Source: Gulosibacter chungangensis (GTDB lineage: Bacteria > Actinomycetota > Actinomycetes > Actinomycetales > Microbacteriaceae). Taken from it: a stretch of 64,000 nucleotides of DNA. The stretch spans positions 1-64,000 of the forward strand of contig NZ_WBKB01000004.1 of assembly GCF_008831155.1 (NCBI RefSeq), read 5' to 3'. The notes under the pieces were generated by a model that saw nothing but the letters and a program-made list of their open reading frames with translations, did not search any database and had not been told where the DNA came from. Shown in pieces: positions 128 through 47,642 of the stretch. The first letter of the stretch is position 1. Each line of letters begins with the position of its first letter. Both the position numbers and the translations under genes were made by a program.

Positions 128-128
128 A

Positions 129-3700: not shown

Positions 3701-3770
3701 GCACCTGTCTGACACGAGGCGGTATTCAAACCGTGAAGGCCGCCGCTGAACTGTCAGGAGGACGGGACCG
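3701..3770 (+). promoter_or_regulatory. GCACCTG-hairpin leader before the SSB-like gene (ICE A)
   Basis: GCACCTG at 3701-3707 is followed by stem arms CTGACA (3709-3714) and TGTCAG (3752-3757), the second running straight into the Shine-Dalgarno GAGG. An inner GGCGG/CCGCC pair (3718-3722 with 3740-3744) can extend the fold. The ICE B copy has the same layout with different pairing bases. Confidence 0.55.
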
Positions 3771-4232
3771 ATGGCTATTCACACGCAGCAGTCCTTTTCA
3801 GGCTTTGTCGCATCGCAACCGCAGCTGACCTACACCGAGAACGGGGATGCTCGTTTGTTCGTGAAGGTCGGCAAAGAACATTTCCGCCAGGAACATGATG
3901 GGTCGTTCACTGAGCTGGAGCCGACCTTTCACAACCTTGTCGCGTTCAAGGCCGCTGCCGAGCAGGGGCATGCCCGGCTGTCGAAGGGCGACCGGTTTAT
4001 CGCGGAGGGTTTCGTTCGCGAATACACCTATGAACGTGATGGGCAAACTATCGAGGGCGAAGAGTTCACTGCTCGAAGAATCGGTCATGACATGGCCCGC
4101 ACTCGGTACGAGGTCGACCGCACACCGAGAGGGAAGACAGCCGCACGGGAGGCGGTTTCTCGCGATGCATCAGCATTCGATCTTCCAACCCAGTCACGCT
4201 CCGGCGGTGCCTCACCCGGTATGGGGATCTGA
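3771..4232 (+). CDS. Single-stranded DNA-binding-like protein (ICE A copy)
   Basis: The 153-aa product resembles the OB-fold SSB-like proteins of actinobacterial ICEs: an N-terminal strand region SGFVASQPQLTYTENGDARLFVKVG, a central HNLVAFKAAAEQ stretch and FIAEGFVREYTY, in the usual SSB strand order. It would coat transferred or replicating single strands. The start ATG follows a GGAGG Shine-Dalgarno that sits at the 3' arm of a predicted leader hairpin. The ICE B homolog is at 46209-46673. The C-terminal tail lacks the acidic DDxxF tip of housekeeping SSB, so it may not recruit the same partners. Confidence 0.82.
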   Translation: MAIHTQQSFSGFVASQPQLTYTENGDARLFVKVGKEHFRQEHDGSFTELEPTFHNLVAFKAAAEQGHARLSKGDRFIAEGFVREYTYERDGQTIEGEEFTARRIGHDMARTRYEVDRTPRGKTAAREAVSRDASAFDLPTQSRSGGASPGMGI

Positions 4233-4242
4233 GGCGACGATC

Positions 4243-4806
4243 ATGAGCGACTACAACATTGAACCTGACGAGATCGACGTTGGTGCTCTCGGGGAAGACA
4301 GTTTTGATGCTCCCTCAGAGCCCCCACACCCAGTGAACTGGAATCTCCTGAGTGCTGACGATCTGGAGGCTGAGTGGCTTGAACTCAACCGATGGGTTGA
4401 CTGGCTCCGTAAAACCTATGGGCTCCCGGCAAGCGTGATCCCGCCGTTCTGGCACCACCACCCCGAACTGGTGTGGGAACTGTCCGCACTACACCTGCAC
4501 TGGCTCTGTGCCTATGACCCAGATCAAAACGGATCAGCACCACTGGGATGGCACCGTGATTTCGTGGACGCTCGACAACGCCTCCGCGACTGGGTCGCTG
4601 TCTCCGGCACACGCCTCGACCGAGACCGCCCGACACGGCAGACGACCTGGCCTGGTGAAGAACCGGCACCGCAAGTCGAAGACATTGTCATTGAGGATCG
4701 CGATGACGAGTTCACGGATTTTGTGCTGGCGGAAGTGAACGTTCGGCGTGCACAAGAAGATGAGTTCTACCGAACCCTCGACGCTGAAACCGGGGAAGTA
4801 TCATGA
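4243..4806 (+). CDS. DUF4913-type ICE protein (ICE A copy)
   Basis: The 187-aa protein has an acidic N-terminus, then a conserved core starting PVNWNLLSADDLEAEW and continuing through WVDWLRKTYGLP, IPPFWHHHPELVWELSALH and a C-terminal acidic, charged tail. The core is typical of DUF4913 proteins found in actinobacterial plasmids and ICEs, whose function is not known. The aromatic and His-rich centre suggests a compact soluble fold. It begins 10 nt after the SSB-like gene and its stop overlaps the next start (ATGA). ICE B homolog: 46683-47291. Confidence 0.8.
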   Translation: MSDYNIEPDEIDVGALGEDSFDAPSEPPHPVNWNLLSADDLEAEWLELNRWVDWLRKTYGLPASVIPPFWHHHPELVWELSALHLHWLCAYDPDQNGSAPLGWHRDFVDARQRLRDWVAVSGTRLDRDRPTRQTTWPGEEPAPQVEDIVIEDRDDEFTDFVLAEVNVRRAQEDEFYRTLDAETGEVS

Positions 4807-5018
4807 GTGCCCCCGATCCGGGCCTCCCTGCCCGAATGCGAGATTATGAAGTGCATGCCGAGCTTCGGGAAACCCCCGACCTTCAACGCCTTGCCCAAGT
4901 CTTTATCGGAATGGCTCTCGCTCGCACCGAGCAGACCCGCACCGGCCGCGACGGCTCGGGCGGTACACCTGGGAGCTGTCAGCCCGGTGAGATAGAATCT
5001 AGAGACGTAAGAAGCTAG
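4803..5018 (+). CDS. Small ICE protein, 71 aa, unknown (ICE A copy)
   Basis: It overlaps the DUF4913 stop by 4 nt. The block DLQRLAQVFIGMALAR matches DLHKLAQVFLGMAVSR in the ICE B copy at 47288-47479, while both ends differ, so the conserved helix is the likely functional part. No membrane segment or known domain is seen. Confidence 0.65.
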   Translation: MSAPDPGLPARMRDYEVHAELRETPDLQRLAQVFIGMALARTEQTRTGRDGSGGTPGSCQPGEIESRDVRS

Positions 5019-5190
5019 CGGTCAGGCCCTCGGCCTGGCCGCGGTGCGCAGTCCTGTTTGGCCCATCGTGGCTTACCTGGCTGGCTCGGCTGAGAGTCAC
5101 CCAGGTCATGTTTCCTTTTACGAGTCGCACCGCACGAGCGGTACAGGCTGCTCGTGTTGGCCCCACCTATGGGGAGAGGAAACACAACCC
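5019..5190 (+). promoter_or_regulatory. Structured leader before serine recombinase A
   Basis: This 172-nt non-coding stretch is paired by position with 47480-47642 before the other recombinase. Four helices can be drawn here: CAGGCC/GGCCTG near 5022-5036, ACCTGG/CCAGGT, CACGAGC/GCTCGTG (5133-5139 with 5150-5156) and CCCC/GGGG (5161-5164 with 5171-5174), the last next to the GAGAGGAAAC ribosome site. Single-stranded blocks GTGCGCAGTC, TGTGGCTTACC-like, TTTACGAGTCGCACCGC and TTGGC are conserved between copies while the helix bases change but still pair. It includes a GCACCGC box (5127-5133) of the same kind as other ICE leaders. Confidence 0.65.
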
Positions 5191-7308
5191 GTGAGCACCA
5201 CACAACAATCTGCCGCCAACGACTTCACGCACCTCGGTGCAACCACCGCCATCGCAGTCTCATACCTACGCGTCTCCACGAAAGAGCAAGCTGAACGCGG
5301 AGGTCGTGACGAAGGCTTCTCTATTCCCGCTCAACGCGAAGCGAATCTGCGCAAAGCCCGCGACCTCGGCGCGATCGTGGTCGAAGAGTTCGTCGACGCC
5401 GGTGAATCAGCCCGGAAGGCCGACCGCCCGGAACTCATGCGCATGATCGAGTACGTCAAAACCAACCACGTGGCCTACTGCATCGTGCATAAGGTTGACC
5501 GCCTCGCACGTAACCGAGCCGATGATGTCGCGATCCATGTCGCGCTCAAAGACGCCGGGGTCATGCTGGTCTCGGCAACAGAGAACATTGACGAGACTCC
5601 CTCGGGCATGCTGCTCCACGGCATCATGTCCACCATCGCCGAGTTCTACTCCCGCAACCTCGCCAACGAAGTCTCAAAGGGCATGAGCCAAAAAGCGATG
5701 ACGGGTGGCACCAACGGAAAAGCACCCATTGGGTATCTCAACGTGACCACGCGCGATGAACTCGGCCGCGAGCTGCGCATCGTTGAACCTGACCCCACGC
5801 GTGCGGAGATCGTGAAGTGGGCGTTCGAGGCATACGCGACTGGCAACTACTCAACTGCCATGCTCCGCGAAGCGCTCATCGACCGGGGCCTCACCACACC
5901 GCCCACGCCGAAACGACCAGCACGGCCGCCCGCGTTATCGACGGTGCAGAAAATGCTGTCCAACCCGTACTACAAGGGCAGCGTGTCGTTTCGGGGTGCC
6001 ACCTATGACGGCATCCACGAACCGCTCGTCGGCCCCGAAGTCTGGTACCGAGTCCAAGCAGTGCTCGGTGCGAAGCAAGTATCCGGTGAGAAAACCCAAA
6101 CCCACGATCACTACCTCAAAGGCACCGTGTTCTGCGGTGAGTGCGGCTCCCGACTCATGGTCACCAACGCCAAGAGCCGCCGTGGCGTCATTTACCCGTA
6201 CTTCATCTGTGCCGGTCGTCACGCCAAACGCACCAACTGTGAACGCAAAGCAATGTATGTGCCTGATGTTGAAGCCGCGGTCGAAGACTACTACCGGCGC
6301 ATCCAAATCCCTGAGCACACCATCCAGGCATTGCGTAGCCTCATCACGGCGCAATTCTCACAGCTCCATGCCACCGTGAAACAAGAACGCAACGCACACG
6401 TGCTCGAACGAGACGATCTCCAGGCAGAGCGTTCCAAACTCCTGCAAGCCCACTACGCAGGAGCGGTGCCGCTTGATCTCCTCAAGTCGGAGCAGGATCG
6501 CATCGGCAGACGGCTCGCGTTCCTCGAAGCACAGATCGAAGCTGGTGACATGGAGTACGAACTGGCAAGTGCCCACCTGGACGACTGCCTCGCACTGGGC
6601 AGAGACTGCTACAAGCTGTACATGAGCATCGATGACTCGCTGCGGCGCATCGCCAACCAGGCATTCTTCGACAAGCTCTACCTCAGTGAGGAGGGCACCG
6701 TTATCGGTGAACCGGGGGAACCGTTCAACGCGTTCTTCGACCCTGAAGTGCAGACGATAGCGGCCCGCCACGAGGGGCGGGCCGCTGAATCGAGGTCTCA
6801 AACCGGTAATGTCGCCGGTTTGAACAACGACCTTCTGGTGGGCCTTCCCAGGCGATTCTCAAACAAGCGCCCGGCGCTGAAATCGTTGATTTCCCATGTG
6901 CTCAGGGATTCCGCGCGACGCGTACCGAGGGGGCGAACCCCTAAGAGACACGATTCGCGAGGCGCGGTCGCGAAAAATCCGGCGAAGTCTCAAACACGAT
7001 TGACCACCGAGCGGCGTGTGGAACTGCTCGCGGACTATGAGGCTGGGATGCCCGTCCAAACCATCGCCGTGAAGTACGGCGTGCATCGCGGAACGATTCC
7101 GACCTTCGTCCTACGATCTGGTGGAAGGTTGCGGTCAACAGGACTGAGCAACGAGCGCCGTGCGAGCGCGGCCATCCTCTACCGCGACGGGCACACGTTG
7201 CAGGAGGTCGCCGATCGTCTCGGCATCGACCCGAAGACCGTGCGCAACGCCGTAGTTGCTGAGGGCATAAGCCTCCGTCCCCGAGGAAGGAGGCCAATGG
7301 CCAAATAG
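5191..7308 (+). CDS. Large serine recombinase/integrase of ICE A, with hybrid C-terminus
   Basis: The 705-aa enzyme would cut and join att sites to insert or excise the ICE. It shows the resolvase catalytic domain (YLRVSTKEQAERGG with the nucleophilic Ser, about residue 29; DRLARNRAD), a recombinase domain, a zinc ribbon (FCGECGSRLMV, then CAGRHAKRTNC) and a coiled-coil. GTG at 5191 is chosen because GAGAGGAAAC lies before it and the ICE B homolog starts at the same place. Up to about residue 551 it matches ICE B recombinase; beyond the GGTGGGCC core at 6837-6844 it runs into unrelated sequence encoding two helix-turn-helix segments (about residues 604-705: RRVELLADYEAGMPVQTIA and a second HTLQEVADRLGID). 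I infer that this tail comes from the left end of ICE B. Confidence 0.88.
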   Translation: MSTTQQSAANDFTHLGATTAIAVSYLRVSTKEQAERGGRDEGFSIPAQREANLRKARDLGAIVVEEFVDAGESARKADRPELMRMIEYVKTNHVAYCIVHKVDRLARNRADDVAIHVALKDAGVMLVSATENIDETPSGMLLHGIMSTIAEFYSRNLANEVSKGMSQKAMTGGTNGKAPIGYLNVTTRDELGRELRIVEPDPTRAEIVKWAFEAYATGNYSTAMLREALIDRGLTTPPTPKRPARPPALSTVQKMLSNPYYKGSVSFRGATYDGIHEPLVGPEVWYRVQAVLGAKQVSGEKTQTHDHYLKGTVFCGECGSRLMVTNAKSRRGVIYPYFICAGRHAKRTNCERKAMYVPDVEAAVEDYYRRIQIPEHTIQALRSLITAQFSQLHATVKQERNAHVLERDDLQAERSKLLQAHYAGAVPLDLLKSEQDRIGRRLAFLEAQIEAGDMEYELASAHLDDCLALGRDCYKLYMSIDDSLRRIANQAFFDKLYLSEEGTVIGEPGEPFNAFFDPEVQTIAARHEGRAAESRSQTGNVAGLNNDLLVGLPRRFSNKRPALKSLISHVLRDSARRVPRGRTPKRHDSRGAVAKNPAKSQTRLTTERRVELLADYEAGMPVQTIAVKYGVHRGTIPTFVLRSGGRLRSTGLSNERRASAAILYRDGHTLQEVADRLGIDPKTVRNAVVAEGISLRPRGRRPMAK
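6837..6844 (+). other. Putative att core (ICE A/ICE B junction)
   Basis: GGTGGGCC lies in frame inside recombinase A at the exact point where similarity to recombinase B ends. The same 8 bases lie at 49301-49308, where recombinase B runs into tRNA-Lys. The reading phase (GTG GGC C) is the same in both. The crossover site itself is an inference. Confidence 0.5.
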
Positions 7309-7328
7309 CCATGGGCCAACAGATTCAG

Positions 7329-7342
7329 GTCGCGATCGCGAC
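7329..7342. repeat. Perfect 14-bp palindrome GTCGCGATCGCGAC
   Basis: It lies 20 bases after the recombinase A stop and about 90 bases before the next gene. It may be a protein-binding site near the left end of ICE B; it is not a good terminator because no T-run follows. Confidence 0.4.
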
Positions 7343-7428
7343 ACGCCGAAAGCCACAGTGATCGATTCCTGCGTATTTCTAAAGCGATAGTGCTAAGGTT
7401 GTGATGTCAGCCAGCGTCAGGAGCATCG

Positions 7429-17446: not shown

Positions 17447-17501
17447 CAGGCACCGCCTCTCCTCACCCCGAAGGTGAGCTTCACAGCCCGCGGGCGCGGT
17501 G
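17447..17501 (-). promoter_or_regulatory. CACCGC-double-hairpin leader before the relaxase
   Basis: Reading leftward, CACCGC (17496-17501) is followed by a GCCCGCGGGC self-pairing run and a CTCACC-TTCGG-GGTGAG hairpin (17462-17478) that ends at the GAGGAGAGG ribosome site. This is close to the plan of the recombinase leaders. Confidence 0.45.
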
Positions 17502-17658
17502 ACTTTTGAGGGCACTTTCCGGAGGCGGCGAACCTCGCTTGCAAGACGCGTGACAACCCGTTCGAGCGAACCGCGAGAGACCGAAGGCGTTTGGCGCCGA
17601 CGTCGGCCGACGTGACTCAGGAGGAGCCGGCTGAATGGCAGTGGGTTGGGTGGCTCGT

Positions 17659-17727
17659 GCACCTGGTTGGCAACCAGCTCGGAGCAGCAGCACGGCTCCG
17701 GGGATCACCGTCCCAGGAGGTTCACCC
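17659..17727 (+). promoter_or_regulatory. GCACCTG-hairpin leader before the DNA methyltransferase
   Basis: GCACCTG at 17659-17665. CTGGTT/AACCAG and CGGAGC/GCTCCG hairpins follow, and ACCTGG can pair with the CCAGG that opens the CCAGGAGG ribosome site before GTG 17728. Confidence 0.5.
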
Positions 17728-18157
17728 GTGGCAGACCAGCCCCTCGCCAATCCGGCCGCGCCGCTGCGTGTCGGGTCGCTGTTCTCCGGTTACGGCGGAC
17801 TCGACCTCGCCGTCGAGGAAGTCTTCGGAGCCCGCACGATCTGGTTCTCCGAGATCAACGAACCCGTCGCCCGTGTCTTCTCCCACCACTGGCCGGACGC
17901 TCCGAACCTCGGTGACATCACCACCATCGATTGGAACACCGTGCCACCGGTGGACATCCTCTGCGGCGGGTTCCCTTGCCAAGATGTTTCCACCGTCGGG
18001 AAGATGGCGGGTTTGAAACCCGGCACCCGCTCCGGGCTTTGGGCACACATGGCGGCAGCGATCGAGGCATTGCAACCGGAGTGGGTTGTGATCGAGAACG
18101 TCCGCGGGCTGCTCTCCGCACCCGCAGCAATCCGCGCACACCCCGAAGGAGACGACA

Positions 18158-18525
18158 ATGAGCAACACAATCCCGATGATGCAACCCCCACCGGTGCAAC
18201 CCCTCGCGAAGTGGAACCCGACCCGTGGCGTCTGGGAAAAACCGCACCTCGACCTCTTCGGGCAGCAGGAGCAGTTCTGGGAGACCTGGCCGACCTCTGG
18301 TATGACGCGCAATGGATCGGTTTACCCGCTTCCGTCGTCGGTGCGCCTCACCCCAGATATAGGGTATTCATCCTCGCCAGCCGTACTCTTCCGAACTCCG
18401 CTCGCATCGGACGCAGCACGTGGCGGGGAGAACTTGCAGCAAGTCAAGGCGCGACGCGGCACCATCGCACTCAGCCACCAGATCATCGACCTCGTCCTCA
18501 ACGGACCGAACGGATGCGAGCTAGT
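18158..18525 (+). pseudogene. Nested out-of-frame ORF inside the methyltransferase, also cut by the IS
   Basis: An ATG at 18158 has a near-perfect Shine-Dalgarno GAAGGAG 6 nt upstream and opens a +1-frame ORF (MSNTIPMMQPPPVQPLAKW...). It includes WETWPTSGMTRNGSV and FRTPLASDAARGG stretches, which look like conserved protein sequence known from phage and ICE methyltransferase-linked proteins. The frame is open to the IS; with the IS removed it would continue through 21152-21224 and stop at TGA (about 147 aa). The overlapped part of the methyltransferase after RVFILA is Arg-rich and looks less constrained. Both frames seem real, so this is a true overlap or a programmed second product. Confidence 0.5.
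18520..18525 (+). repeat. Target-site duplication GCTAGT, left copy
   Basis: The same six bases are found at 21146-21151, immediately outside the two inverted ends of the IS. Confidence 0.85.
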
Positions 18526-19483
18526 TGTATTTCCCCGAGACGTTGCGAACGCGCGATGAGGGGACGTCGCCGCCAATTCCTGAGTGCGGGCGGTGATGGT
18601 TGTAGTGGTGCAGCCAGCGCGGATAGTCCGCCGAGCGAGCCTCGTCCGAGTCGTAGGCGGTGGCATAGGCCCACTCGGCGGCCAGCGTTCGGTTGAACCT
18701 CTCGACTTTGCCGTTCGTCTGTGGCCGGTAGGGCCGGGTGCGACGGGGCATAATCCCGTCGAGGGCGTCCGCAAAAGCGTGTGATCGATAGCAGGAACCG
18801 TTGTCGGTCATGACAGCGCTGACCTGGATGCCGCCCTCGGCAAAGAATGCGCGTGCGCGCCGCCAGAACGCGGCGGCAGTCTCCTTCCTTTCGTCGTTCA
18901 GGATCTCGGAGTAGGCGAGCCGTGAGTGGTCGTCGACCGCATGGTGGAGGTAGGCGTAGCCGCGACCTTGTTTCTTGTTGTTTCTTGCGCCGGCCTGCCG
19001 CCCCAGCACACGGTGGCCGCCTCCGTCGGGGATGCGCCCAAGCTTCTTGATGTCGACATGGACCAGCTCGCCCGGTTTGCTCTTCTCGTAGCGGACCGGT
19101 TTGATCTTGCGGACGGGGAGCCCAGTGGCTTGATCAAGATGGGCGAGCAACGGCATCCGATACCGATCGAGCACACGCCCGACCGTGGATCGCGGGATAC
19201 CGAGGTGATAGCCGATTCGATGTGGCCCCCAACGGCGAGTGAACCGCAGAGCGATGATGCGACGTTCGGCGTGTTGATTAGTGCGGGCCGGTTGCCGATG
19301 TGGACGCGAGCTGCGATCAGTGAGCGAAAGTCCGACCCGGTATCGACGCGCCCACTTCGAGGCGGTCGACGGTGAACATTGAAAACGGTCCGCGGCGCGA
19401 CGTACCGGCCATCCCTTGTCAACGATCAGCGAAGCGAGCCTGCGTCGGCCCTCTGGTGTAAGCGGTGCGTTCGCGTGTGTCAT
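18521..19483 (-). CDS. IS481-family transposase
   Basis: The 320-aa protein has an N-terminal HTH (WPVRRAADRFQCSPSTASKW) and a DDE core: Asp in ELVHVDIKKLG, Asp in SAVMTDNGSCYRS and Glu in NGKVERFNRTLAAEW. The last codons run through the terminal repeat and the TAG stop (18521-18523) lies in the target duplication, outside the IS; at a different site the end of the protein would change. The ATG overlaps the tetR stop as TGATG, so the regulator and transposase are translated together. Confidence 0.92.
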   Translation of the reverse strand: MTHANAPLTPEGRRRLASLIVDKGWPVRRAADRFQCSPSTASKWARRYRVGLSLTDRSSRPHRQPARTNQHAERRIIALRFTRRWGPHRIGYHLGIPRSTVGRVLDRYRMPLLAHLDQATGLPVRKIKPVRYEKSKPGELVHVDIKKLGRIPDGGGHRVLGRQAGARNNKKQGRGYAYLHHAVDDHSRLAYSEILNDERKETAAAFWRRARAFFAEGGIQVSAVMTDNGSCYRSHAFADALDGIMPRRTRPYRPQTNGKVERFNRTLAAEWAYATAYDSDEARSADYPRWLHHYNHHRPHSGIGGDVPSSRVRNVSGKYN

Positions 19484-24833: not shown

Positions 24834-24999
24834 ACGCGCGTGCGTCCGGGTGAATCGACCGTGATCCGGTGCTCGGATCACCAGGCATCTTGCTTCTGGG
24901 GTAGAGGTGGGCTGACCACGTCGGGTTCAGCGATGCACCTGACGGTCGCTCACACTTTGTCCGTCGTCCGTCTCGATTGCGTTTCCTGAGTCCCTTCGC

Positions 25000-25059
25000 G
25001 CACCTTCTGGTCGCAGAGGTCACCCGCCGTGTACGGGTGCCTGCGGAAGGAGGACGGCG
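25000..25059 (+). promoter_or_regulatory. GCACCTT-hairpin leader before the ArdC-like gene
   Basis: GCACCTT (25000-25006) is followed by a two-part stem: CGCAG/CTGCG outside (25012-25016 with 25041-25045) and CACCCG/CGGGTG inside (25021-25026 with 25034-25039). GAAGGAGG starts directly after the stem and the ATG is at 25060. One of the clearest examples of the ICE leader design. A further GCACCTG at 24935 is not followed by such a stem. Confidence 0.58.
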
Positions 25060-26142
25060 ATGGCAACCAGCGAGGAAGCGAGGGCGGCGCGGGATGCGAA
25101 GCTCGACGCTCTGTATGAACAGCTCACCGATGCGGTGGAGTCGTTGGTGTCGGGTGAGGACTGGAAGCAGGCGCTCACGTTCGCGGCCCGGTTCCGTGCC
25201 CGCTCGTTCAACAACACGCTGCTGATCTTCGTGCAGCATCAGGCGGCGTTCGAGGCGGGCCGAGTGCCAGAGCCGGTGCCGTCATATGTCGCGGGATTCA
25301 AACAATGGCAGGCACTCGGCCGGCAAGTCTCAAAGGGTCAGTCGGGGTACATGATCCTTGCCCCGGTGACGGGCCGGTTCGCGTCATTCACGCCGAGGGT
25401 GGCGGAGTCGTGGCGCCGGCTCGGCCGGTTCGAGAAGCCGAAGCCGGGTGAGGCGGTGCGCTCCCGCATGGTCGGCGTCCGCCCTGCCTACGTCTGGGAT
25501 GTCTCCCAAACCTCAGGTGACCCGATCCCCGCGCCACCCTCACCGCGGCTGCTGGAAGGCGAAGCACCCGACGGCCTCTGGGATGGCATTGCGCGGTTGG
25601 TGGAGGCGGAGGGGTTCACGGTGTTGCGGGTGCCGCATGAGGGCATGATCCACGGTGCGAACGGCCTCACCGATTTCGGTGCGCGGACGGTGGCGGTGCG
25701 GGAGAACATGCCCGAGGCGGCACAGGTGAAGACCCTCGTGCACGAGCTCGCCCATGTCCTGCTGCACGGCCCAGACAACGCCGATGCGACGGGGCATCGC
25801 GGGATCGGTGAGGTCGAAGCGGATTCGGTGGCATTGATGGTCGCCGCAGCGCACGGCATGGACACCAGCGACTACACGGTCCCGTATGTGTCGGGGTGGG
25901 CGGCAACGGTGCCGGAGAAATCCCCGGTCGAAGTCGTCCAAGCCACCGGCGAACGAGTCCGCAAAACCGTAGCCAGCATTCTCGACCAACTCCTCACCGC
26001 ACAGATCAGCGATGGCGACCCACCCGGCCTCACCCGCGACGCCCCGGCGAAGAAGCGCACCGAGCCTGCGATCGAGGCGACTGCTGATCCCTTGGCTGAG
26101 GGGCCGCGCCGTGCGGTGGCAGCGTCGGTGAGGAGTCTGTGA
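25060..26142 (+). CDS. ArdC-like antirestriction protein with zinc peptidase motif
   Basis: The 360-aa protein has an ArdC-type N-terminal ssDNA-binding domain (FNNTLLIFVQHQAA, GFKQWQALGRQVSKGQSG) and a C-terminal ImmA/IrrE-like metallopeptidase with HELAHVLLHG plus the Glu of GEVEADSVALMVAA. ArdC proteins protect incoming single-stranded DNA from restriction (known). It heads a tightly packed operon: its stop shares 4 nt with the prim-pol ATG. The C-terminal 40 residues are charged and variable. Confidence 0.88.
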   Translation: MATSEEARAARDAKLDALYEQLTDAVESLVSGEDWKQALTFAARFRARSFNNTLLIFVQHQAAFEAGRVPEPVPSYVAGFKQWQALGRQVSKGQSGYMILAPVTGRFASFTPRVAESWRRLGRFEKPKPGEAVRSRMVGVRPAYVWDVSQTSGDPIPAPPSPRLLEGEAPDGLWDGIARLVEAEGFTVLRVPHEGMIHGANGLTDFGARTVAVRENMPEAAQVKTLVHELAHVLLHGPDNADATGHRGIGEVEADSVALMVAAAHGMDTSDYTVPYVSGWAATVPEKSPVEVVQATGERVRKTVASILDQLLTAQISDGDPPGLTRDAPAKKRTEPAIEATADPLAEGPRRAVAASVRSL

Positions 26143-28158: not shown

Positions 28159-28207
28159 ACGGCTATGCGCAGAAGACGGTGGTGGGGTGGCGGTGGGGAG
28201 CCGGTGC

Positions 28208-28233
28208 GCACCTGCCTGTCAGGAGGTGCCACC
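28208..28233 (+). promoter_or_regulatory. GCACCTG-hairpin leader, SD-sequestering form
   Basis: GCACCT (28208-28213) pairs with AGGTGC (28224-28229), and CCT pairs with AGG inside, so the AGGAGG ribosome site is buried in the stem. The shortest and most direct case of this leader type. Confidence 0.55.
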
Positions 28234-29103
28234 ATGCCACAACGAAACACTCCACGTCGCGATGGTCGCGGGCGTGGGTTCGAGAACTCAGAACGACTCC
28301 GCGAACTCCTCACCCGCCTCGACGCTGAGGGGCCGGACGCCTGGCGGAATGACCCGGTCGCTACCGAACTCATGCGGTACGCGGCCGACAAGTACGCCGC
28401 GCTCGCGCGCAAGCACGGTCTTGATCCGTGGGAGGCGGCGACCGCGGCGTTCGAGGCGATGCGTGCGCCCTCGGTGCGGCGGGCGGATGATCCGTGGGCG
28501 GTCATCACCCGTGCCGTGCAGATCACCTGCATCGCAGAAAACCGCGCCAACGGACTCCTGTGCTCCGTGCACCAGGCACGCAGACCCAGATACTCGAGTT
28601 TCCATGACGCCGAACGCTTCTCCGACCGCGAAAACCTCCTCACCGACTACCACCCCGCATTCCGCGCCGACCCCTTCACTGACGACGACGAAGACGACGC
28701 TGACGACGAGGTGGAAGCGTCAGGGGCGACGGGAGTGGAGTCAGCGGTCGAAGACACAATCGCACTGCTGTGCTGGTACGGGTGGGAACCAGTGGTCGCC
28801 CGCGCGGCGATCGAGTGCATCTGCGCACGCCTCGCAGAATCCGTCTCACGAGCGGGAGCATATGAATCGCTGCGGCGTGATCGTCACGCCCGGGCACTCC
28901 TCGATATCCCCGCACCGTCCTGGTATCGGCTGCTGCGCATCGTCCTCGGATCACCAGACGCAAGCCTGACCGGTACGAATGCGAGCCGTGGCGTGCTGCT
29001 GCGGCTCCTGATTGGCGAATCACTCCGGCATCTCCTCACTGATGTTGACCTCGCGGTCGCCGTCACGGTTGCCGCGCCCGGGGTGATGCGAGGCCGGCCA
29101 TGA
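28234..29103 (+). CDS. ICE protein, 289 aa, unknown
   Basis: ATG at 28234 is favoured over an in-frame ATG at 28165 because AGGAGG lies just upstream. The protein is helical and contains YAALARKHGLDPWEAATAAFEAM and ITRAVQITCIAENRANGLLCS, faintly like a sigma-factor region 2, then an acidic DDDEDDADDE linker. That likeness is weak and I do not assign a function. The stop overlaps the ParB ATG. Confidence 0.68.
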   Translation: MPQRNTPRRDGRGRGFENSERLRELLTRLDAEGPDAWRNDPVATELMRYAADKYAALARKHGLDPWEAATAAFEAMRAPSVRRADDPWAVITRAVQITCIAENRANGLLCSVHQARRPRYSSFHDAERFSDRENLLTDYHPAFRADPFTDDDEDDADDEVEASGATGVESAVEDTIALLCWYGWEPVVARAAIECICARLAESVSRAGAYESLRRDRHARALLDIPAPSWYRLLRIVLGSPDASLTGTNASRGVLLRLLIGESLRHLLTDVDLAVAVTVAAPGVMRGRP

Positions 29104-30176: not shown

Positions 30177-30210
30177 CCCTCCGCCGCCTCCCTGCCCTGA
30201 ATGCTGTGGT

Positions 30211-30253
30211 GCACCTGTCTGGTGATCCGAATCTCGTCGGGAAGGACACCAGG
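30211..30253 (+). promoter_or_regulatory. GCACCTG-hairpin leader before the VirB8-like gene
   Basis: GCACCTG at 30211-30217; CTGGTG (30219-30224) pairs with CACCAG (30247-30252), which touches the ATG at 30254. Confidence 0.5.
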
Positions 30254-30940
30254 ATGGACCCCACCGCTCGCCGCCGCCGCACCGTGCTCATCGCCGCCAC
30301 AGCTGTCGGCCTGATCCTGCTCCTCCTCATCGGCGTCGGGGTCTACGGACTCACCCGCGGCCCCCAGACCACCGAACCCGCCCGTCCCGATGGGCCGACG
30401 GCAACGAACCCGGCACACGTCCCGGCAGAACCGGAAGCCGTGGTCACCCTCGGTGGGTCGGAAAAGTTCGCAGGCGCGGTTGCGGAAGCGCTGTTTACCT
30501 GGGATACGACCAGTGGGTATGGGCCTGCCGATTACGCGCAGATGCTCGCCGATGTAACCGCCGACACGGAAGCCGACGCGGCTGCATCCGATGTCCGTTC
30601 CTATCTGCCGACCCAGGAGGCATGGACGCAGCTCCGCACGCATCAGACGCGGCAGTGGCTCACCATCGACACGATCGAGATCCCTGCCGCGTGGGAGGAT
30701 GCGGTGGTGCAGGCGGCGCCGGGGCAGATTCCTGACGGTGCGGTCGCGTATACGATCACCGGCACCCGCCACCGCACCGGCTACTGGGGCACCGACCCGG
30801 TCACGACAACGCACCCGGTCGCGTTCACCGTGTTCCTCACCTGCACACCCGAACGCACCTCCGCACCGGCGCCTGCCGCTCCAATCACTGAAACGTGCGC
30901 GGTGTTGCGGTTGTCGCAGCTCGACAACCCGCTGCGGTGA
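30254..30940 (+). CDS. VirB8/TcpC-like single-pass membrane protein (inferred)
   Basis: The 228-aa product has a basic start, one membrane helix (VLIAATAVGLILLLLIGVGV, about residues 11-30) and an outside domain of mixed helix and strand. Size, topology and place before the peptidoglycan hydrolase and pilin-like genes fit a VirB8/TcpC-type assembly factor with an NTF2-like fold; there is no diagnostic motif. It starts right after its leader hairpin. Confidence 0.65.
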   Translation: MDPTARRRRTVLIAATAVGLILLLLIGVGVYGLTRGPQTTEPARPDGPTATNPAHVPAEPEAVVTLGGSEKFAGAVAEALFTWDTTSGYGPADYAQMLADVTADTEADAAASDVRSYLPTQEAWTQLRTHQTRQWLTIDTIEIPAAWEDAVVQAAPGQIPDGAVAYTITGTRHRTGYWGTDPVTTTHPVAFTVFLTCTPERTSAPAPAAPITETCAVLRLSQLDNPLR

Positions 30941-33791: not shown

Positions 33792-33837
33792 CTCCTCATT
33801 TTAGGTGAGCTCCCAGATGCGCGATGGGGGCGCGGGT

Positions 33838-33894
33838 GCACCTGGCTGGCAAGTTCGCCATTCCCTGGCGTTTGTGAGCTGAAGGAGCATCCCT
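33838..33894 (+). promoter_or_regulatory. GCACCTG leader before the second pilin-like gene
   Basis: GCACCTG at 33838-33844; a smaller hairpin CGCCA-TTCCC-TGGCG (33856-33870) precedes GAAGGAG (33881-33887) and GTG 33895. Confidence 0.42.
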
Positions 33895-34164
33895 GTGATT
33901 GATATTGACCCGAACGGTACCGGGCTTCCCGGTATCGAGCAGTTGCGCATCATCGTCGGCGCGGTGATGACCGTCGGCCTGATCCTCTCCGTCCTCGCCC
34001 TGATCGTCTCCGCGATCGTATGGGGCTTCGGCGCGAACAGCAGCAACCCGCATCTCGCTTCGCGCGGGAAGGTCGGCGTGCTCGTGTCCTGCGGCGCGGC
34101 GATCATCTGCGGCGCGTCGGTGACGCTCATCAACTTCTTCTGGGGCGTCGGCCAAGCCGTCTAA
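33895..34164 (+). CDS. Small two-helix membrane protein, pilin/VirB2-like (second copy)
   Basis: The 89-aa protein starts with GTG and has helices at about residues 20-47 and 58-82. It shares the SNPHLASRGKVGV loop pattern with 32128-32394. Two paralogs in one mating operon may form a mixed channel or one may be spare. GAAGGAG lies before the start. Confidence 0.75.
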   Translation: MIDIDPNGTGLPGIEQLRIIVGAVMTVGLILSVLALIVSAIVWGFGANSSNPHLASRGKVGVLVSCGAAIICGASVTLINFFWGVGQAV

Positions 34165-39330: not shown

Positions 39331-39338
39331 ATGCTCAG

Positions 39339-39355: not shown

Positions 39356-39465
39356 TCTGATTCCGCGTGATTCTGCGGGTTTTGGCCGATCTGTGGGGTG
39401 TTGTGAGGGTGCAAGTTCCCGCGCCCACCGATCCTCTCGTAATGACTGTTTCGGCGTGCCGGTTC

Positions 39466-39511
39466 GCACCTATCCCTCGATTGACACGCCATGACCGAGG
39501 GAGCAGCACTG
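39466..39511 (+). promoter_or_regulatory. GCACCTA-hairpin leader before dprA
   Basis: GCACCTA (39466-39472) is followed by CCCTCG (39474-39479) pairing with CGAGGG (39496-39501), which itself is part of the GAGGGAG ribosome site. This decides the start at 39512. Confidence 0.5.
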
Positions 39512-40525
39512 ATGGACACGATCAACGAACTGGCAGCAGATGAGAGCACCGCGAGGATCATCCTCGCTATCGCGTCCGAACCAGGAGATGCGGTGACGGG
39601 GCGGATGATTCGCACCGTCGGCGCATCCGAAACGGTCGCCCGCGTCCTCGCCGATGAAGTCCCGGCAGGGCCCGACGGTGACACCTGGCAGCGCCGCCTC
39701 GCACCACGCCTCGACGCCGCACAAATCCAGCGGGTGCTTGCTGAGACAGAGCGGCACGGGATGCGGGTGCTGATCCCCGGCGATGCTGAATGGCCTGCCG
39801 GGATCGACGCGCTCGGTGATGGCGCGCCGGTGGCGTTGTGGGCGAAAGGCAACCCAGGGCTGCTGACCGGACCGATGTGGGATCGCCTCACCATCACCGG
39901 AGCCAGGGCGTCCACCGCCTACGGGGAACACGTCACCACGGAGCTGGTGCAGTCGGCGGTCGCCGACTCCCGTGTGGTGTTTTCGGGCGGCGCGTATGGG
40001 ATCGATGGTGCCGCGCACCGTGCCGCACTCGCCTCGAATGGCTCAACGGTCGCCGTGCTCGCAGGCGGCTTGGATCGGCTGTATCCGGCAGGGCACACTG
40101 ATCTGCTGACCCGTGTCGGCAAGGACGGCCTGTTGCTGTCGGAGTTGCCGCCGGGTGCGGCGCCGACGAAGTGGAGGTTCCTGCAACGAGGCAGGCTCCT
40201 CGCCGCGCTCTCCGGCACCGTCCTCATCGCCGAGGCCGGGTACCGTTCCGGCACCCTCCACACCGCCGCCCGCGCCGCCGAACTCGGCCGCCCGGTCGGG
40301 GCTATCCCCGGGCCGATCACGAGCGCCACCTCTACGGGCTGTCATCGGTTGCTGCGTGACGGCCTCGCCACGGTGGTGACTGGCTATGAAGATGTGCGCG
40401 AGTTGCTGCATGGGGTTCGTGACCGGGCTCACCGTGCCGTGCGGGAGCGTGCGGGACTCGAGTCCGACCCGCTCGAGGCTGGGCCGCCGGCGCAGGGGCG
40501 GGATTTGAGGGGGCCGGTGTTGTGA
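39512..40525 (+). CDS. dprA: DprA/Smf-like DNA-processing protein
   Basis: The 337-aa protein has a Rossmann-like DprA core (ITGARASTAYGEH, VVFSGGAYGIDGAAHRAAL, LLSELPPGAAPTKWRFLQR). In transformation DprA loads RecA on incoming single strands; on an ICE it may help incoming DNA or act in defence. ATG 39512 is preferred to 39491 because GAGGGAG lies about 10 nt before it. ICE A has no copy at this place. It has its own leader. Confidence 0.88.
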   Translation: MDTINELAADESTARIILAIASEPGDAVTGRMIRTVGASETVARVLADEVPAGPDGDTWQRRLAPRLDAAQIQRVLAETERHGMRVLIPGDAEWPAGIDALGDGAPVALWAKGNPGLLTGPMWDRLTITGARASTAYGEHVTTELVQSAVADSRVVFSGGAYGIDGAAHRAALASNGSTVAVLAGGLDRLYPAGHTDLLTRVGKDGLLLSELPPGAAPTKWRFLQRGRLLAALSGTVLIAEAGYRSGTLHTAARAAELGRPVGAIPGPITSATSTGCHRLLRDGLATVVTGYEDVRELLHGVRDRAHRAVRERAGLESDPLEAGPPAQGRDLRGPVL

Positions 40526-40535
40526 GGCGGGTGGT

Positions 40536-40595
40536 GCACCTGGTGTGAAGGCGGCCGGCTCTGGTCGCTGATGAACACACACCAGGAGGTATCTC
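40536..40595 (+). promoter_or_regulatory. GCACCTG-hairpin leader before the surface-protein gene
   Basis: GCACCTG at 40536-40542; CCTGGTGTG (40539-40547) pairs fully with CACACCAGG (40578-40586), which overlaps the AGGAGG ribosome site before GTG 40596. The longest single arm in the set (9 bp). Confidence 0.55.
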
Positions 40596-43598: not shown

Positions 43599-43646
43599 CC
43601 ACAGGCTGCCGACCCTCCGGCACCCCCACCCCAGGGCGGGTCGGTA

Positions 43647-43684: not shown

Positions 43685-43709
43685 CCTGCGTTTCGGGGGC
43701 GGTGCTAGT

Positions 43710-43753
43710 GCACCTGCCTGGCGACACCCCTGCACTCCACGGAGAGGAACCCT
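43710..43753 (+). promoter_or_regulatory. GCACCTG leader before the 198-aa gene
   Basis: GCACCTG at 43710-43716. A small CTCC/GGAG hairpin overlaps the GGAGAGG ribosome site before GTG 43754. The fold is weaker than at other loci. Confidence 0.38.
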
Positions 43754-44350
43754 GTGACGCCGAAGCCTCGCTACCGCCGCACCCACCCCGACCACCAACC
43801 CCCGAAAGCGCCGAAGCCACCGAAGACTGAGCCCGGTGGACCGGTCGTCGTGCCGGTGGTGGAGTTCACCATCACCGCTGATGGTGCGATGACGGTCACG
43901 GTCGACGGGCGCCCGTATCTCCCGGAGCCGTTCGCTCCGGGATGGCGGCGCGAAGCGTTCCCGACCATCCTCGACGCCCTCACCGCCCAGTACCGGTCGC
44001 CGCTGCGCGTGCAGGTACACGAGGCCGACGGGTCAACGTTCACCGACATCATCACCCCGCCCCGCGAACGCACCACCCCAAAGCCCTGGGAAGCATCAGC
44101 ACCGGCACCGGTGGCTGTGGTGTCGCCTCCGGTACCAGCCGCGCAGCCGGTGCTGCATCAGGTGGCAGGGGCAGGGTTCGTTGCGGGTGAGGATGTCGCC
44201 GTCGCGATCATCCACGCCCACACCGACGCCAGCAGCGACGGCACCGCCCGCACCCTCCTCACCGCAGAGCAAACCGCGCTTGCGGTGACGGGTGAAGTGA
44301 TCCTCCTCGGCCGCATCTCCGGCACCCTCACGGTCGGGAGAATCCAATGA
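43754..44350 (+). CDS. ICE accessory protein, 198 aa, unknown (ICE B copy)
   Basis: Homolog of 1376-1912 with the same TVDGxPYLPEPFAPGWRR, VHEADGSTFTDIITP and GEDVAVAIIHAHTDAS blocks and a Pro-rich linker. The GTG start has GGAGAGG upstream. Its stop shares 4 nt with the VirD4 start. Function not known. Confidence 0.75.
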   Translation: MTPKPRYRRTHPDHQPPKAPKPPKTEPGGPVVVPVVEFTITADGAMTVTVDGRPYLPEPFAPGWRREAFPTILDALTAQYRSPLRVQVHEADGSTFTDIITPPRERTTPKPWEASAPAPVAVVSPPVPAAQPVLHQVAGAGFVAGEDVAVAIIHAHTDASSDGTARTLLTAEQTALAVTGEVILLGRISGTLTVGRIQ

Positions 44351-46164
44351 GCACCCCGCGGCAGGGTGGGGCGCTTGGGGATGAGCTGGCGAACCTCGGA
44401 ATCATCGCCCTCATCGCCGCCGCCGTCCTCGCCGTCATCCTCCGCGTTGCGGGAACGATCACCGCGTGGGTTACCGGGATTGCGCAGCCGCCGGGCGGGA
44501 TCGAAGCCGGCCCCGGCGTGCTCCTGCACCCCTCCGACCCCGGTAGCGCACTCGCTGCCGACGAGCTGAACCCGGTCGCGTACTGGATCGTCACCGGCAT
44601 CCTCATCGTCGCGGTCGGGAGTGCGGGGTGGTGGGTGTGGCGGTTCTTCCGCGAGCACGCACGACAGACGAAGGTCGACCCGTACCGGATCGTCGGGATC
44701 GCCACCCGCACCGACGTCACCACCGCCGCATCAGAGAAAGCACTGCTGCGTCGGGCCGGGCAACTCCGCCCCTCCATCCAGCAGCCTGCGGTCACCGATG
44801 TCGGATACCTCCTCGGCGCATCGAGGAACGTAAACGTGTGGGCGAGTGTGGAGGATTCGATCCTGCTGATCGGGCCACCACGATCGGGGAAGGGGTTGCA
44901 TGTGGTCATCAACGCGATCCTCGACGCCCCAGGCGCCGTCGTCACGACCTCCACCCGCCCCGACAACCTCACCGCCACTCTCACAGCACGCCGTGCGGAG
45001 GGGCGGCCAGTGGCGGTGTTCGATCCGCAGCACCTCGCCGAAGGCGTCCCCGCAGGCTTGCGGTGGTCACCGATCCGGGGATGCGAAGACCCGCTGACTG
45101 CGATGATCCGCGCCACCGGCCTCGCCGCAGGCACCGGCCTGTCCGCTGGCGGTGTCGAGGGCGGGGATTTCTGGGAAGGGAAAACCCGCACCGCCCTCCA
45201 AGCACTCCTCCATGCCGCAGCCCTGGACCAGCGTGCGCCTGCCGAGTTGTTCCGGTGGACCCTGGACCCGGCTGCGGCGTCCGATGCGGTCGCGATCCTT
45301 ACCGCGAACCCTCGGGCGGCGACGGGGTGGGCGGATTCGTTGCAGGCGATGATCGACTCAGACCCCAGAACCCGCGACTCCATCTGGCAAGGCGTGTCCC
45401 TGTCTCTTGCCGCGCTCGCAGATCCCCGCGTCCTCGACGCGGTCAGCCCAGGCCCGGAGGAGCGGTTCGATCCGGAGGAGTTTCTGCGCAAGCGCGGCAC
45501 CGTGTATCTGCTCGCGACAGGCGCCGGGGCGAACAACAGTGCCGCACTGGTGTCAGCGTTCGTGGAAGACCTCGTCGAAGCCGCCCGTCGCCTCGCCGCA
45601 CGCTCACCGTCAGCACGTCTCGACCCGCCGCTGCTGCTGGCGCTGGATGAGATCGGAAACCTCGCCCCACTGCCATCGCTCCCGACGTTGATGGCAGAAG
45701 GCGGAGGTACCGGGATCACGACCATGCCGGTACTGCAATCCCTCGCACAGGCACGCGAGAAGTGGTCGGATAACGCTGCCGGCGCGATCTGGGACGCATC
45801 GATTGTGAAGATCATCCTCGGTGGCGCATCCAACTCCCGTGACCTTCAAGACCTCACCACCCTCATCGGTGAACGCGACGAGATCACCGACTCCACCACC
45901 ATCGGCGACCACGGCTCCCGCACCGCACAACGCTCCATCCGCCGGGTAGCGATCATGCCTCCCGACGTGATCCGCACCCTCCCATTCGGTACCGGACTGA
46001 TCCTGCTACGCGCCGCGCCACCGATCGTCGCGAAACTGCGTGCTTGGACGCGCCGCAAGGGCGCGAGCGACCTGCAGGGTCAGCGGCGCGTGGTGGAGAA
46101 GCTGCTACAAACCGGTTCTCCGGCATCCGCGGGTGATGAGGGGCCGGTGGGCGCACCTGAGTGA
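44347..46164 (+). CDS. VirD4/TraG-type coupling protein (ICE B copy)
   Basis: The 605-aa ATPase has two N-terminal membrane helices (about residues 15-43 and 80-100), Walker A IGPPRSGKGLHVV (about 177) and Walker B LLALDEIGNLAPL, and the C-terminal SLAQAREKWS and GGASNSRDL regions. It links the relaxase complex to the channel. It is close in sequence to ICE A 1909-3675. The stop codon sits inside the next leader box. Confidence 0.93.
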   Translation: MSTPRQGGALGDELANLGIIALIAAAVLAVILRVAGTITAWVTGIAQPPGGIEAGPGVLLHPSDPGSALAADELNPVAYWIVTGILIVAVGSAGWWVWRFFREHARQTKVDPYRIVGIATRTDVTTAASEKALLRRAGQLRPSIQQPAVTDVGYLLGASRNVNVWASVEDSILLIGPPRSGKGLHVVINAILDAPGAVVTTSTRPDNLTATLTARRAEGRPVAVFDPQHLAEGVPAGLRWSPIRGCEDPLTAMIRATGLAAGTGLSAGGVEGGDFWEGKTRTALQALLHAAALDQRAPAELFRWTLDPAAASDAVAILTANPRAATGWADSLQAMIDSDPRTRDSIWQGVSLSLAALADPRVLDAVSPGPEERFDPEEFLRKRGTVYLLATGAGANNSAALVSAFVEDLVEAARRLAARSPSARLDPPLLLALDEIGNLAPLPSLPTLMAEGGGTGITTMPVLQSLAQAREKWSDNAAGAIWDASIVKIILGGASNSRDLQDLTTLIGERDEITDSTTIGDHGSRTAQRSIRRVAIMPPDVIRTLPFGTGLILLRAAPPIVAKLRAWTRRKGASDLQGQRRVVEKLLQTGSPASAGDEGPVGAPE

Positions 46165-46208
46165 CAGAGCACCCTGACCGGGGGTGCCGCTGTCACGAGG
46201 AGTGTCCA
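46153..46208 (+). promoter_or_regulatory. GCACCTG-hairpin leader before the SSB-like gene (ICE B)
   Basis: GCACCTG at 46153-46159; GTGACAG (46161-46167) pairs with CTGTCAC (46190-46196), and GCACCC/GGGTGC pairs inside, giving a long stem next to GAGGAG. The arms differ from ICE A (CTGACA/TGTCAG) yet pair in the same place. Confidence 0.6.
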
Positions 46209-46673
46209 ATGGCTATCCACACACAAGAGTCCCTGTCCGGGTTCATCGCTTCCGAACCGCACCTGTCGTTCACCGAGAAAGGTGACGCACGACTGTTCGT
46301 GAAGATCGGGCAAGAACACTACCGCCGCGAAGACGATGGCTCGTTCACGCAGACCGAGACCACCTTCCACGACCTCGTCGCGTTCCGGAAGACCGCCGAA
46401 CGCGCCCACCAGCGCTTGGCGAAAGGCGACAAGTTCGTCGCCGAGGGCTACACCCACCACTACGACCGCACCGACGACACCGGGCAGACCGTCAAGGCAG
46501 AAGAGTTCATCGCGAAGAAAATCGGGCACGACCTCGCCCGCACCCGCTACACAGTCGACCGTCCCCGACGCACACAAGCAACCGACTCATTGGATGCCGG
46601 ACTCGAGGACGCTGCACTGTCACCCGGCGCACCACGCCGCGCGCCCGCTGGTGCAACCGCGGTCGGAAGGTGA
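46209..46673 (+). CDS. Single-stranded DNA-binding-like protein (ICE B copy)
   Basis: The 154-aa SSB-like protein has SGFIASEPHLSFTEKGDAR, FHDLVAFRKTAER and FVAEGYTHHYDR blocks. ATG 46209 is used, matching ICE A, not the ATG at 46161 that lies within the leader hairpin. It would protect transferred single strands. The C-terminus lacks the usual acidic tip. Confidence 0.83.
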   Translation: MAIHTQESLSGFIASEPHLSFTEKGDARLFVKIGQEHYRREDDGSFTQTETTFHDLVAFRKTAERAHQRLAKGDKFVAEGYTHHYDRTDDTGQTVKAEEFIAKKIGHDLARTRYTVDRPRRTQATDSLDAGLEDAALSPGAPRRAPAGATAVGR

Positions 46674-46682
46674 GGACGGATC

Positions 46683-47291
46683 ATGGTCGATGAACTGCCC
46701 GACACGGGCGAAGTTGATCCGGGCGAAGTGGCGGAGGACGAGTTCGATGAGAGCTACGACCCCGACACCGAACCCTCCACCGCGGAGGATGAGGGGATGG
46801 CGGGTCCGCCGGGGCCGGTGAACTGGAATCTCCTCACCGCCGACGCCGCAGAAGAAGAATGGCTCGCGCTCAACGAATGGGTGCACTGGCTTCGCCACAC
46901 CTACGGCCTCTCTGTCGCCGTCTGCCCGCCGTTCTGGCACCGCCACCCGGCACTGGTGTGGGAACTGTCCGCGTTGCACATCCACTGGCTGTGCGCGATC
47001 CACCCCGAAGCCAAGGGCTCCGCCATGCTCATCTGGCATCGCGACTTCACCGAAGCCCAAGAACGCCTCCGGCACTGGACCGCAGCCTGCGGCACGCGCC
47101 TGACCACCGACCGCCCCACCCGCCGCATCGCCTGGCCCGGAGAATCCGACACCGACACCATCGATGACATCGTGATCCCGAACCGCGAGGAAGACTTCGT
47201 GGAATACATGCACGCTGATGTGGAAGCGCGGCGACGTGCCGAGGACCAGTTCATCGCAGGTCTCGTCCTGAGCACGGGAGAAGTACCATGA
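46683..47291 (+). CDS. DUF4913-type ICE protein (ICE B copy)
   Basis: The 202-aa protein has an acidic N-terminus and the same core as 4243-4806: PVNWNLLTADAAEEEW, WVHWLRHTYGL, CPPFWHRHPALVWELSALHI. Function unknown. The stop shares 4 nt with the next gene. Confidence 0.8.
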   Translation: MVDELPDTGEVDPGEVAEDEFDESYDPDTEPSTAEDEGMAGPPGPVNWNLLTADAAEEEWLALNEWVHWLRHTYGLSVAVCPPFWHRHPALVWELSALHIHWLCAIHPEAKGSAMLIWHRDFTEAQERLRHWTAACGTRLTTDRPTRRIAWPGESDTDTIDDIVIPNREEDFVEYMHADVEARRRAEDQFIAGLVLSTGEVP

Positions 47292-47479
47292 ACCGGCGTG
47301 AGCGCAGGCGGGGTGAGGATCGACGCTTCACCGTCAAAGCAGTGCCACGCAGTCAACCTGACCTGCACAAGCTCGCGCAGGTGTTCCTCGGCATGGCGGT
47401 CAGCAGATCGAAGGCGAACGACGCGCCCACGCCGGATGACGCCGATCCTGGGCGTTCTGAGCCCGACAAGGTAGAATAG
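47288..47479 (+). CDS. Small ICE protein, 63 aa, unknown (ICE B copy)
   Basis: Overlaps the DUF4913 stop. It shares DLHKLAQVFLGMAVSR with the ICE A copy; the N-terminus is Arg-rich (MNRRERRRGEDRR), so nucleic-acid binding is possible. Confidence 0.65.
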   Translation: MNRRERRRGEDRRFTVKAVPRSQPDLHKLAQVFLGMAVSRSKANDAPTPDDADPGRSEPDKVE

Positions 47480-47642
47480 AACCCGACGCCGCGGCCTTAC
47501 CGGGCCGGGTGCGCAGTCTCTTTGCCCTTGTGGCTTACCCCGGTTCCTTTCCGGCGGACGTGTTTCCCGTTTACGAGTCGCACCGCGTGACGCTTCGCCG
47601 TCGCGTTGGCTCCCACCCTTCCGGTGAGAGGAAACAAGACTC
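47480..47642 (+). promoter_or_regulatory. Structured leader before serine recombinase B
   Basis: Partner of 5019-5190. Helices can be drawn at CGGCC/GGCCG, CCGG/CCGG, GACG/CGTC and CACC/GGTG, in the same order as ICE A but with changed bases. Constant blocks are GGTGCGCAGTC, TGTGGCTTACC, TTTACGAGTCGCACCGC and GAGAGGAAAC. The GCACCGC box is at 47580-47586. Changes that keep pairing between two copies support a folded RNA. Confidence 0.65.

Follow-up and report, generated by a model that had tools for sequence, protein, structure and literature searches.

The recurrence of a GCACC box ahead of genes in a 64,000-nucleotide stretch of the Gulosibacter chungangensis genome (contig NZ_WBKB01000004.1, positions 1–64,000; hereafter the window) raises the question of what kind of signal this box is and what reads it. 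By our own reading of the boundaries, the window contains the tail of one integrative and conjugative element (ICE; 1–7308) and, after other genes, a second ICE that ends at 49385 and adjoins a tRNA-Lys gene (49301–49376). An initial annotation had listed 14 places at which such a box precedes a hairpin whose 3′ arm ends at or near the Shine-Dalgarno (SD) sequence, and had proposed a single element-wide design, perhaps for translation control. What it observed is real and extends further than it stated; its interpretation is supported in part, and we shift it from an RNA box to a promoter combined with a lock on read-through. The reading we favor, to which we assign a probability of about 0.68, is that GCACCT forms the core of a promoter of this ICE family, that the promoter is read by a sigma-like protein encoded by the ICE, and that a hairpin locks the SD on read-through RNA.

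The box is present at all 14 listed places, as GCACCT at ten of them, GCACCGC at three and TCACCGC at the relaxase gene, but a single design covers only part of this list. A model of the motif, trained on related elements, gives nine of the sites 16–26 bits, fits the site at 39466 weakly (9.1 bits), and scores the four CACCGC sites at −1 to −16 bits, which rules these four out as members of the motif family. Window sites of at least 16 bits are the nine listed ones and one at 16349 on the minus strand; none precedes a cargo gene, as had been suspected.

To describe the motif beyond the window, which was itself left out, we sampled pieces, each at most 20 kb long, that surround relatives of the VirB4-like protein with 68–97% identity (49 loci, L039–L087), together with 20 neighbouring pieces; 20 chromosome pieces served as control, and 23 loci with more distant VirB4 genes of type IV secretion systems (T4SS) as comparison; gene starts came from a simple purpose-written caller, and some are missed or misplaced (the start at 17728 was not called). 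GCACCT is the commonest hexamer upstream of genes in these 49 loci, occurring in 116 of 482 upstream regions, against 22 for its reverse complement and 7 of 266 upstream regions in the chromosome; the element-wide character of the design is supported. Among the element genes with no gap to the gene before them, either abutting or overlapping it, 25 of 350 have the hexamer, so the claim that it marks genes with their own start holds.

Alignment of leaders from about 50 related loci extends the box to G(GG)-N7-GYGCACCT-N6-YR. The motif was built from position weights around 165 boxes and refined iteratively with no requirement for the box, and it comprises, counting the first base of the box as position 0, a G at −12 (GGG from −12 to −10), a G and a C or T at −2 and −1, GCACCT at 0–5, G at 6, C at 8, G at 10, a pyrimidine at 12 and a purine at 13. 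Neither the GGG, 10–12 nucleotides before the box, nor the YR step, 12–13 nucleotides past its first base, was part of the initial annotation. At a threshold of 14 bits the motif occurs in 157 of 1228 ICE upstream regions, with 16 matches on the reverse strand and one in 342 chromosomal upstream regions. A second, independent set (80 named loci minus the 16 that overlap the first set, leaving 64) yields 225 distinct motif sites in 1200 upstream regions, and 26 on the reverse strand, the latter count not being deduplicated. Counted by gene, 124 of the 865 gene starts of the 49 family loci have the motif in front of them (10 in reverse), and none of the 420 gene starts in the 23 more distant loci does (none in reverse). 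In the source genome a strict form of the motif occurs at 14 places, six of them in the window, and its backward control at six; it is therefore not the matches alone that are specific genome-wide, but their position before gene starts. The motif and its specificity, and the start geometry, the arm pairing and the location of that pairing described below, are shown by computation.

We then ask where transcription might begin. Start geometry was scored on motif positions up to 10, with the later ones free; the weights derive partly from the same loci. Among 385 genes, 98% have a purine at position 13 and 94% a pyrimidine at position 12. An in-frame ATG open to the gene end occupies position 13 in 29 of the genes and position 12 in six; each of positions 14–23 has none or one, and the counts rise from position 24 and reach 40 at 26. 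With the full score, ATG is at 13 in 39 of 383 genes, and in 34 of these it is in frame with the called gene. In 23 motif-bearing leaders of the sigma-like gene (among 24 leaders inspected) AGGAGG begins exactly at 13. The position weights of the related loci reveal neither a conserved −35 nor a conserved AT-rich −10 around the motif. The purine and the pile-up of ATGs at 13 suggest that transcription probably starts there and that some genes are probably leaderless; such a start would explain the ATG pattern, since leaderless genes would begin at that position and the others would need a leader with room for an SD. Several orthologs of the gene at 30254 (e.g. in L055, L059, L061 and L062) have ATGAAG exactly 13 nucleotides past the box, which leaves no room for an SD, and leaderless mRNAs are thus predicted for them. 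Because a transcript from the predicted start would lack the box, the box would lie outside the regulated mRNA, and it is best read as a promoter core in DNA rather than as an RNA element. Pure translation control through a box in the regulated mRNA is hard to maintain given this prediction and the longer, promoter-like motif.

What, then, of the hairpins? We compared the pairing of each leader's 5′ segment with its own SD region and with that of another leader, a swap test that needs no alignment and that used only non-redundant leaders of 36–80 nucleotides (40–80 in one early test). For the window's ten GCACCT sites, pairing is stronger between own arms than between swapped ones (p = 0.0018, 20,000 permutations), which agrees with the claim that the arms differ in sequence yet pair. 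Sequestration of the SD is supported as well: by our own reading, single-sequence folds of read-through RNA show a hairpin that includes the SD at eight of these ten sites, the exceptions being 43710, where no box-to-SD hairpin is clear, and 17659, where none is seen; the SD is mostly freer in the folds of the predicted own RNA. In the first set of 87 leaders the z-score for positions 0–19 is −7.6 (−6.2 with GC-matched swaps), with the excess confined to windows within positions 1–18 and nothing clear upstream of the box. Windows within 1–18 in the second set of 84 independent leaders have z-scores of −2.9 to −4.2, and the flanks are weaker (to −2.8 upstream, with −2.3 for the window from −11 to −3, and −2.0 at 16–24); pooling 149 leaders gives −7.7, with the excess over by about position 18. 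In energy terms, positions 0–19 of 93 leaders average −13.4 kcal/mol for own arms and −11.65 kcal/mol for swapped arms.

The excess is also found within ortholog families. Leaders were assigned to 15 gene families by single linkage, which may have over-merged some, and the seven families with at least six distinct leaders were tested; four reach p < 0.05, namely those of 90 amino acids (40 leaders, z −6.4), 231 amino acids (26, −3.9), 151 amino acids (16, −3.6) and 265 amino acids (35, −2.0). Restricting the segment to the box-free positions 6–17 leaves an excess within three ortholog families that none of 2000 permutations reaches, and taking one leader from each of the 15 families gives a median z of −2.4 (range −3.9 to −1.1). 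The predicted openness of the SD averages 0.29 in read-through RNA and 0.45 in the predicted own RNA of 84 leaders (three of the 87 were dropped, their SD not being clear); 35 of the 84 differ by more than 0.2 in this direction and four in the opposite one. Judged from the predicted start and the arm positions, it is the 5′ arm of the SD hairpin that contains the promoter, with some families and sites deviating. The pairing excess, at positions 0–17, falls largely before the predicted start. The lock is therefore expected chiefly on read-through RNA, and read-through is to be expected given that 212 of 351 motif genes lie within 150 nucleotides behind a co-directional neighbour.

The best motif in the window (28196–28224, plus strand, 26.3 bits) precedes the gene of a 289-residue protein (28234–29103, plus strand) for which AlphaFold2 and Foldseek give a predicted sigma region 2-like fold, with weak statistics; the predicted transcription start, 28221, coincides with the first base of the SD. 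Two helical domains are confidently predicted, and with the model of residues 13–120 (predicted local distance difference test 88.8) as query, Foldseek ranks 1–14 are all sigma chains as judged by their titles, with query template-modelling (TM) scores of 0.38–0.56; SigI1 is second (0.56) and T4 gp55 third (0.52). We take the top-ranked entry, '9a4r RPSH', to be sigma-H on its title and length, and on similar grounds the F-type chains of polymerase complexes are presumed to be sigma subunits. Nothing significant was found for the protein by sequence among Protein Data Bank chains, PHROGs and 50,697 phage records; one plasmid record matches it, with no gene annotated beneath the match. Leucobacter luti RF6 has a 100% identical copy, the family was seen in 29 of the 297 genomes sampled from the order, and one genome collection holds 411 relatives, the best 80 of which were analysed. 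The motif precedes the sigma-like gene in 77 of the 80 named loci. The gene is visible in 24 of the 49 family pieces, and the family was detected in 19 of 24 tested genomes with close loci (once by a fragment), which had been selected with preference for genomes in which the 20 kb piece did not show the gene; it is absent from all 16 tested genomes that gave distant loci only. The protein is a candidate reader of the motif, and its assignment as a sigma factor is a lead rather than proof.

In the mechanism that we propose, the promoter private to this ICE family would have GGG at about −25 to −23, GYGCACCT at −15 to −8 with the GCACCT core at about −13 to −8, and a YR start at +1, and would be read by RNA polymerase carrying the sigma region 2-like protein. 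With the window's strongest motif before its own gene, this protein would activate its own promoter, making a positive-feedback switch of the transfer regulon. The hairpin would link the promoter region to the SD, so that RNA arriving from an upstream gene carries both arms and hides the SD, and RNA begun at the promoter, being without most of the 5′ arm, would be translated. Where transcription starts, that the protein acts as a sigma factor and how translation is affected are all inferred here. If true, the promoters of the transfer regulon in a large family of actinobacterial ICEs become readable as a code, the regulon gains a candidate master switch, and GC-rich bacteria gain a new sigma–promoter pair.

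Several observations weigh against this reading. For the candidate reader, the Foldseek E-values are all above 1 (1.2 or more for residues 13–120), hhalign against host extracytoplasmic function (ECF) sigma profiles found nothing (probability 0.1–0.2%), Pfam assigns the window protein to no family and none of 30 relatives in its family to a sigma family, and NCBIfam has no match to the protein; five of the 24 close-locus genomes lack the gene, among them the single-contig genome G079, whose locus L052 has two motif genes. Four of the 49 close loci (L053, L075, L082 and L086) have no motif gene at 14 bits, and their genomes nonetheless hold the sigma-like gene. For the lock, two of the seven ortholog families have no pairing excess and the 361-residue family, taken as ArdC-like (e.g. 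window 25000–25060) by length alone, pairs inside the predicted own RNA instead (z −4.0); the gap in SD openness is partly expected from the shorter RNA, an arm-shuffled control differing less (0.34, p 0.01); pairing within the own RNA is below chance in the first set (z +2.9), which the second set did not replicate; and the excess is equally strong in leaders with no co-directional gene within 150 nucleotides upstream (z −6.1, n = 56, against −5.2, n = 93). The aligned base-pair covariation that the initial annotation proposed as a test did not appear among 31 DUF6112 leaders, in which RNAalifold found no pairs and counted covariation was not above shuffles; in our view this is because the arms sit in differing registers.

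Some of these points lend themselves to other explanations. The same promoter and hairpin could be read by another factor, either an ICE activator or a host sigma factor helped by one, with the sigma-like protein acting otherwise; the weak statistics of the sigma fold, the motif genes of L052 and the helix-turn-helix (HTH) and ParB-type proteins encoded near the sigma-like gene would fit, but we consider this unlikely given that the surroundings of the motif show no other conserved elements of a core promoter, that the first 14 domain matches read as sigma chains, and that the family and the motif co-occur in most loci. Sigma-54 was considered as reader in particular. Its promoters (−24/−12) have a GG-N10-GC spacing that the ICE motif shares, with the rest of the consensus differing; a search for the sigma-54 DNA-binding domain (rpoN) found none in the source genome and was positive in four of 14 control genomes, and sigma-54 was rejected. 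The model in which the box acts within the mRNA, as an RNA switch with the hairpin that works by competition for the SD, a protein or a small RNA, now appears improbable. GCACCT does resemble the anti-SD, its CCT can pair with the AGG of the SD, and the arms covary in the swap tests; an RNA-only family is nevertheless disfavored by the extent of the motif and by the start geometry, with in-frame ATGs at 13, at most one at each of positions 14–23, and a nearly constant purine at 13. The GGG at −12 to −10 lacks a pairing excess with the SD in the first and pooled sets (the value for −11 to −3 in the second set being that given above), and Rfam covariance models have no match in the window at E up to 1 except a tRNA and an antisense tRNA match, the latter below the family cut-off.

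It is likewise doubtful, to about the degree that we doubt another factor, that the promoter is real and the hairpin without function, a by-product of GC-rich leaders in which promoter CCT is complementary to SD AGG. Most of the pairing energy is indeed common to swapped arms and the aligned covariation test is negative; the persistence of the excess with GC-matched swaps, and in the box-free segment within three ortholog families, argues otherwise. Chance or shared ancestry with no function at all is very improbable: the DNA is GC-rich, homology links many of the leaders, and a single leader from each gene family yields a modest hairpin signal, but the empty count in the distant loci and the reverse-strand and chromosome controls disfavor it strongly as far as the motif is concerned.

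The promoter-plus-lock reading has a close parallel in phage late genes. Passages of two reviews on the T4 late genes e, I-TevI and segB and on mobE of phage Aeh1 describe upstream transcripts that fold so that the ribosome-binding site is hidden. Transcripts begun at a late promoter just upstream are missing the 5′ part of this fold and can be translated (PMC2988022, PMC3014915), the same layout of promoter and hairpin as proposed for the ICE leaders. The T4 case concerns particular genes of a lytic phage, whereas the ICE case is element-wide and in Actinobacteria; the ICE motif, unlike T4 late genes, is GC-rich and some of its genes are apparently leaderless. The T4 reader gp55 is described as a diverged member of the sigma-70 family in which a domain homologous to sigma R2 is present, and the late promoters as having an element like the −10 but lacking a conserved −35 (PMC7892883); the ICE protein is longer, with an extra C-terminal helical domain, and its promoter has GGG at about −25. 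If the reading is true, the T4 logic of a promoter inside a hairpin has been reached in a conjugative element. More specifically, we tentatively suggest, at somewhat less than even odds, that in a widespread actinobacterial ICE family a highly diverged ICE sigma factor, a compact bipartite promoter (GGG at −25 and GYGCACCT at −15 to −8, spaced as for sigma-54 but with no sigma-54 involved), self-activation and SD-locking hairpins together represent phage-late-gene logic evolved in a conjugative element.

Among conjugative elements, the ConjTn1549 family of Streptococcus ICEs is reported to encode a sigma factor, which may regulate transfer, and the passage concerned mentions neither a promoter class nor a hairpin (PMC4701971). 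The window element is of the same kind as the T4SS-type ICEs of Actinobacteria, which have integrase, TrwC relaxase, VirD4-like and VirB4-like genes; in the main text of the paper describing them the word promoter is absent, and two occurrences of sigma are a supplier's name (Ghinet 2011, PMC3218068). Our search of the open-access literature found no title on this motif or protein, which does not prove absence. We know of no ICE with such an element-wide design of promoters and hairpins.

The remaining motif sites of the window are distributed over both elements, on the plus strand unless noted. In the tail of the first, adjacent element, 3689–3717 (22.7 bits, predicted start 3714) precedes an SSB-like gene (3771–4232). 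In the second, 17647–17675 (20.4 bits) precedes a C5 cytosine methylase reading frame at 17728, which runs into an opposite-strand transposase-like gene (18521–19483, by eye) and looks truncated; 24988–25016 (18.5 bits) precedes the ArdC-like gene at 25060, 30199–30227 (18.6 bits) the gene at 30254, and 33826–33854 (22.8 bits) the DUF6112 gene at 33895, which heads a co-directional run reaching the VirB4-like gene and for which the leaders of the 90-residue family have covarying arms. The weak site at 39454–39482 (9.1 bits) lies before a DprA-like gene (39512) and has the hairpin CCCTCG/CGAGGG; 40524–40552 (16.0 bits), also with a hairpin, precedes the gene of a large surface-type protein (40596); 43698–43726 (21.1 bits), with no clear box-to-SD hairpin, stands before the gene at 43754 and TraG (44347); and 46141–46169 (21.8 bits), which overlaps the end of TraG and has a strong hairpin, precedes an SSB gene (46209). 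A weaker candidate for the relaxase gene (called start 17446) is at 17461–17489 on the minus strand (14.1 bits); its box, at 17477, differs from the CACCGC named earlier. The minus-strand match at 16349 (18.0 bits) is within the relaxase gene and far from every called start.

The two integrase leaders with GCACCGC (5115–5190, −1.1 bits, and 47568–47642, −14.3 bits, both plus strand) do not belong to the motif family and constitute a conserved leader or promoter of their own kind, specific to integrases. The two sites are alike, as are the integrases themselves, and the serine integrase leaders at 5127–5190 and 47580–47642 have TTTACGAGTCGCACCGC and GAGAGGAAAC in common.

Variants of the motif were seen in related loci. 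A T replaces the conserved A of the box in the DUF6112 leaders of L053, L057, L067 and L232 (GCTCCT; ACTCCT in L053), as well as in the SSB and sigma-like leaders of L074 and the SSB leader of L075, and in L067 the T-variant and a GCACCT box coexist in one element; co-evolution of such variants with the sigma-like protein was compared by eye in seven loci only. Seven loci (L135, L137, L139, L141, L142, L144 and L145) have an extra motif about 450–580 nucleotides before the sigma-like gene, which, judged by TGGTTC letters, seems to lie in the end of a DUF2637/HTH gene. The source genome has three copies of the sigma-like gene (contigs C16, C1 and C21) and five matches to VirB4, of which two are interrupted, and so several elements of this ICE family in one genome. 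Finally, a match to the Rfam family Plastid-ycf2 below its cut-off, at 49302–49376 and antisense to the tRNA-Lys gene, is probably merely tRNA-derived.

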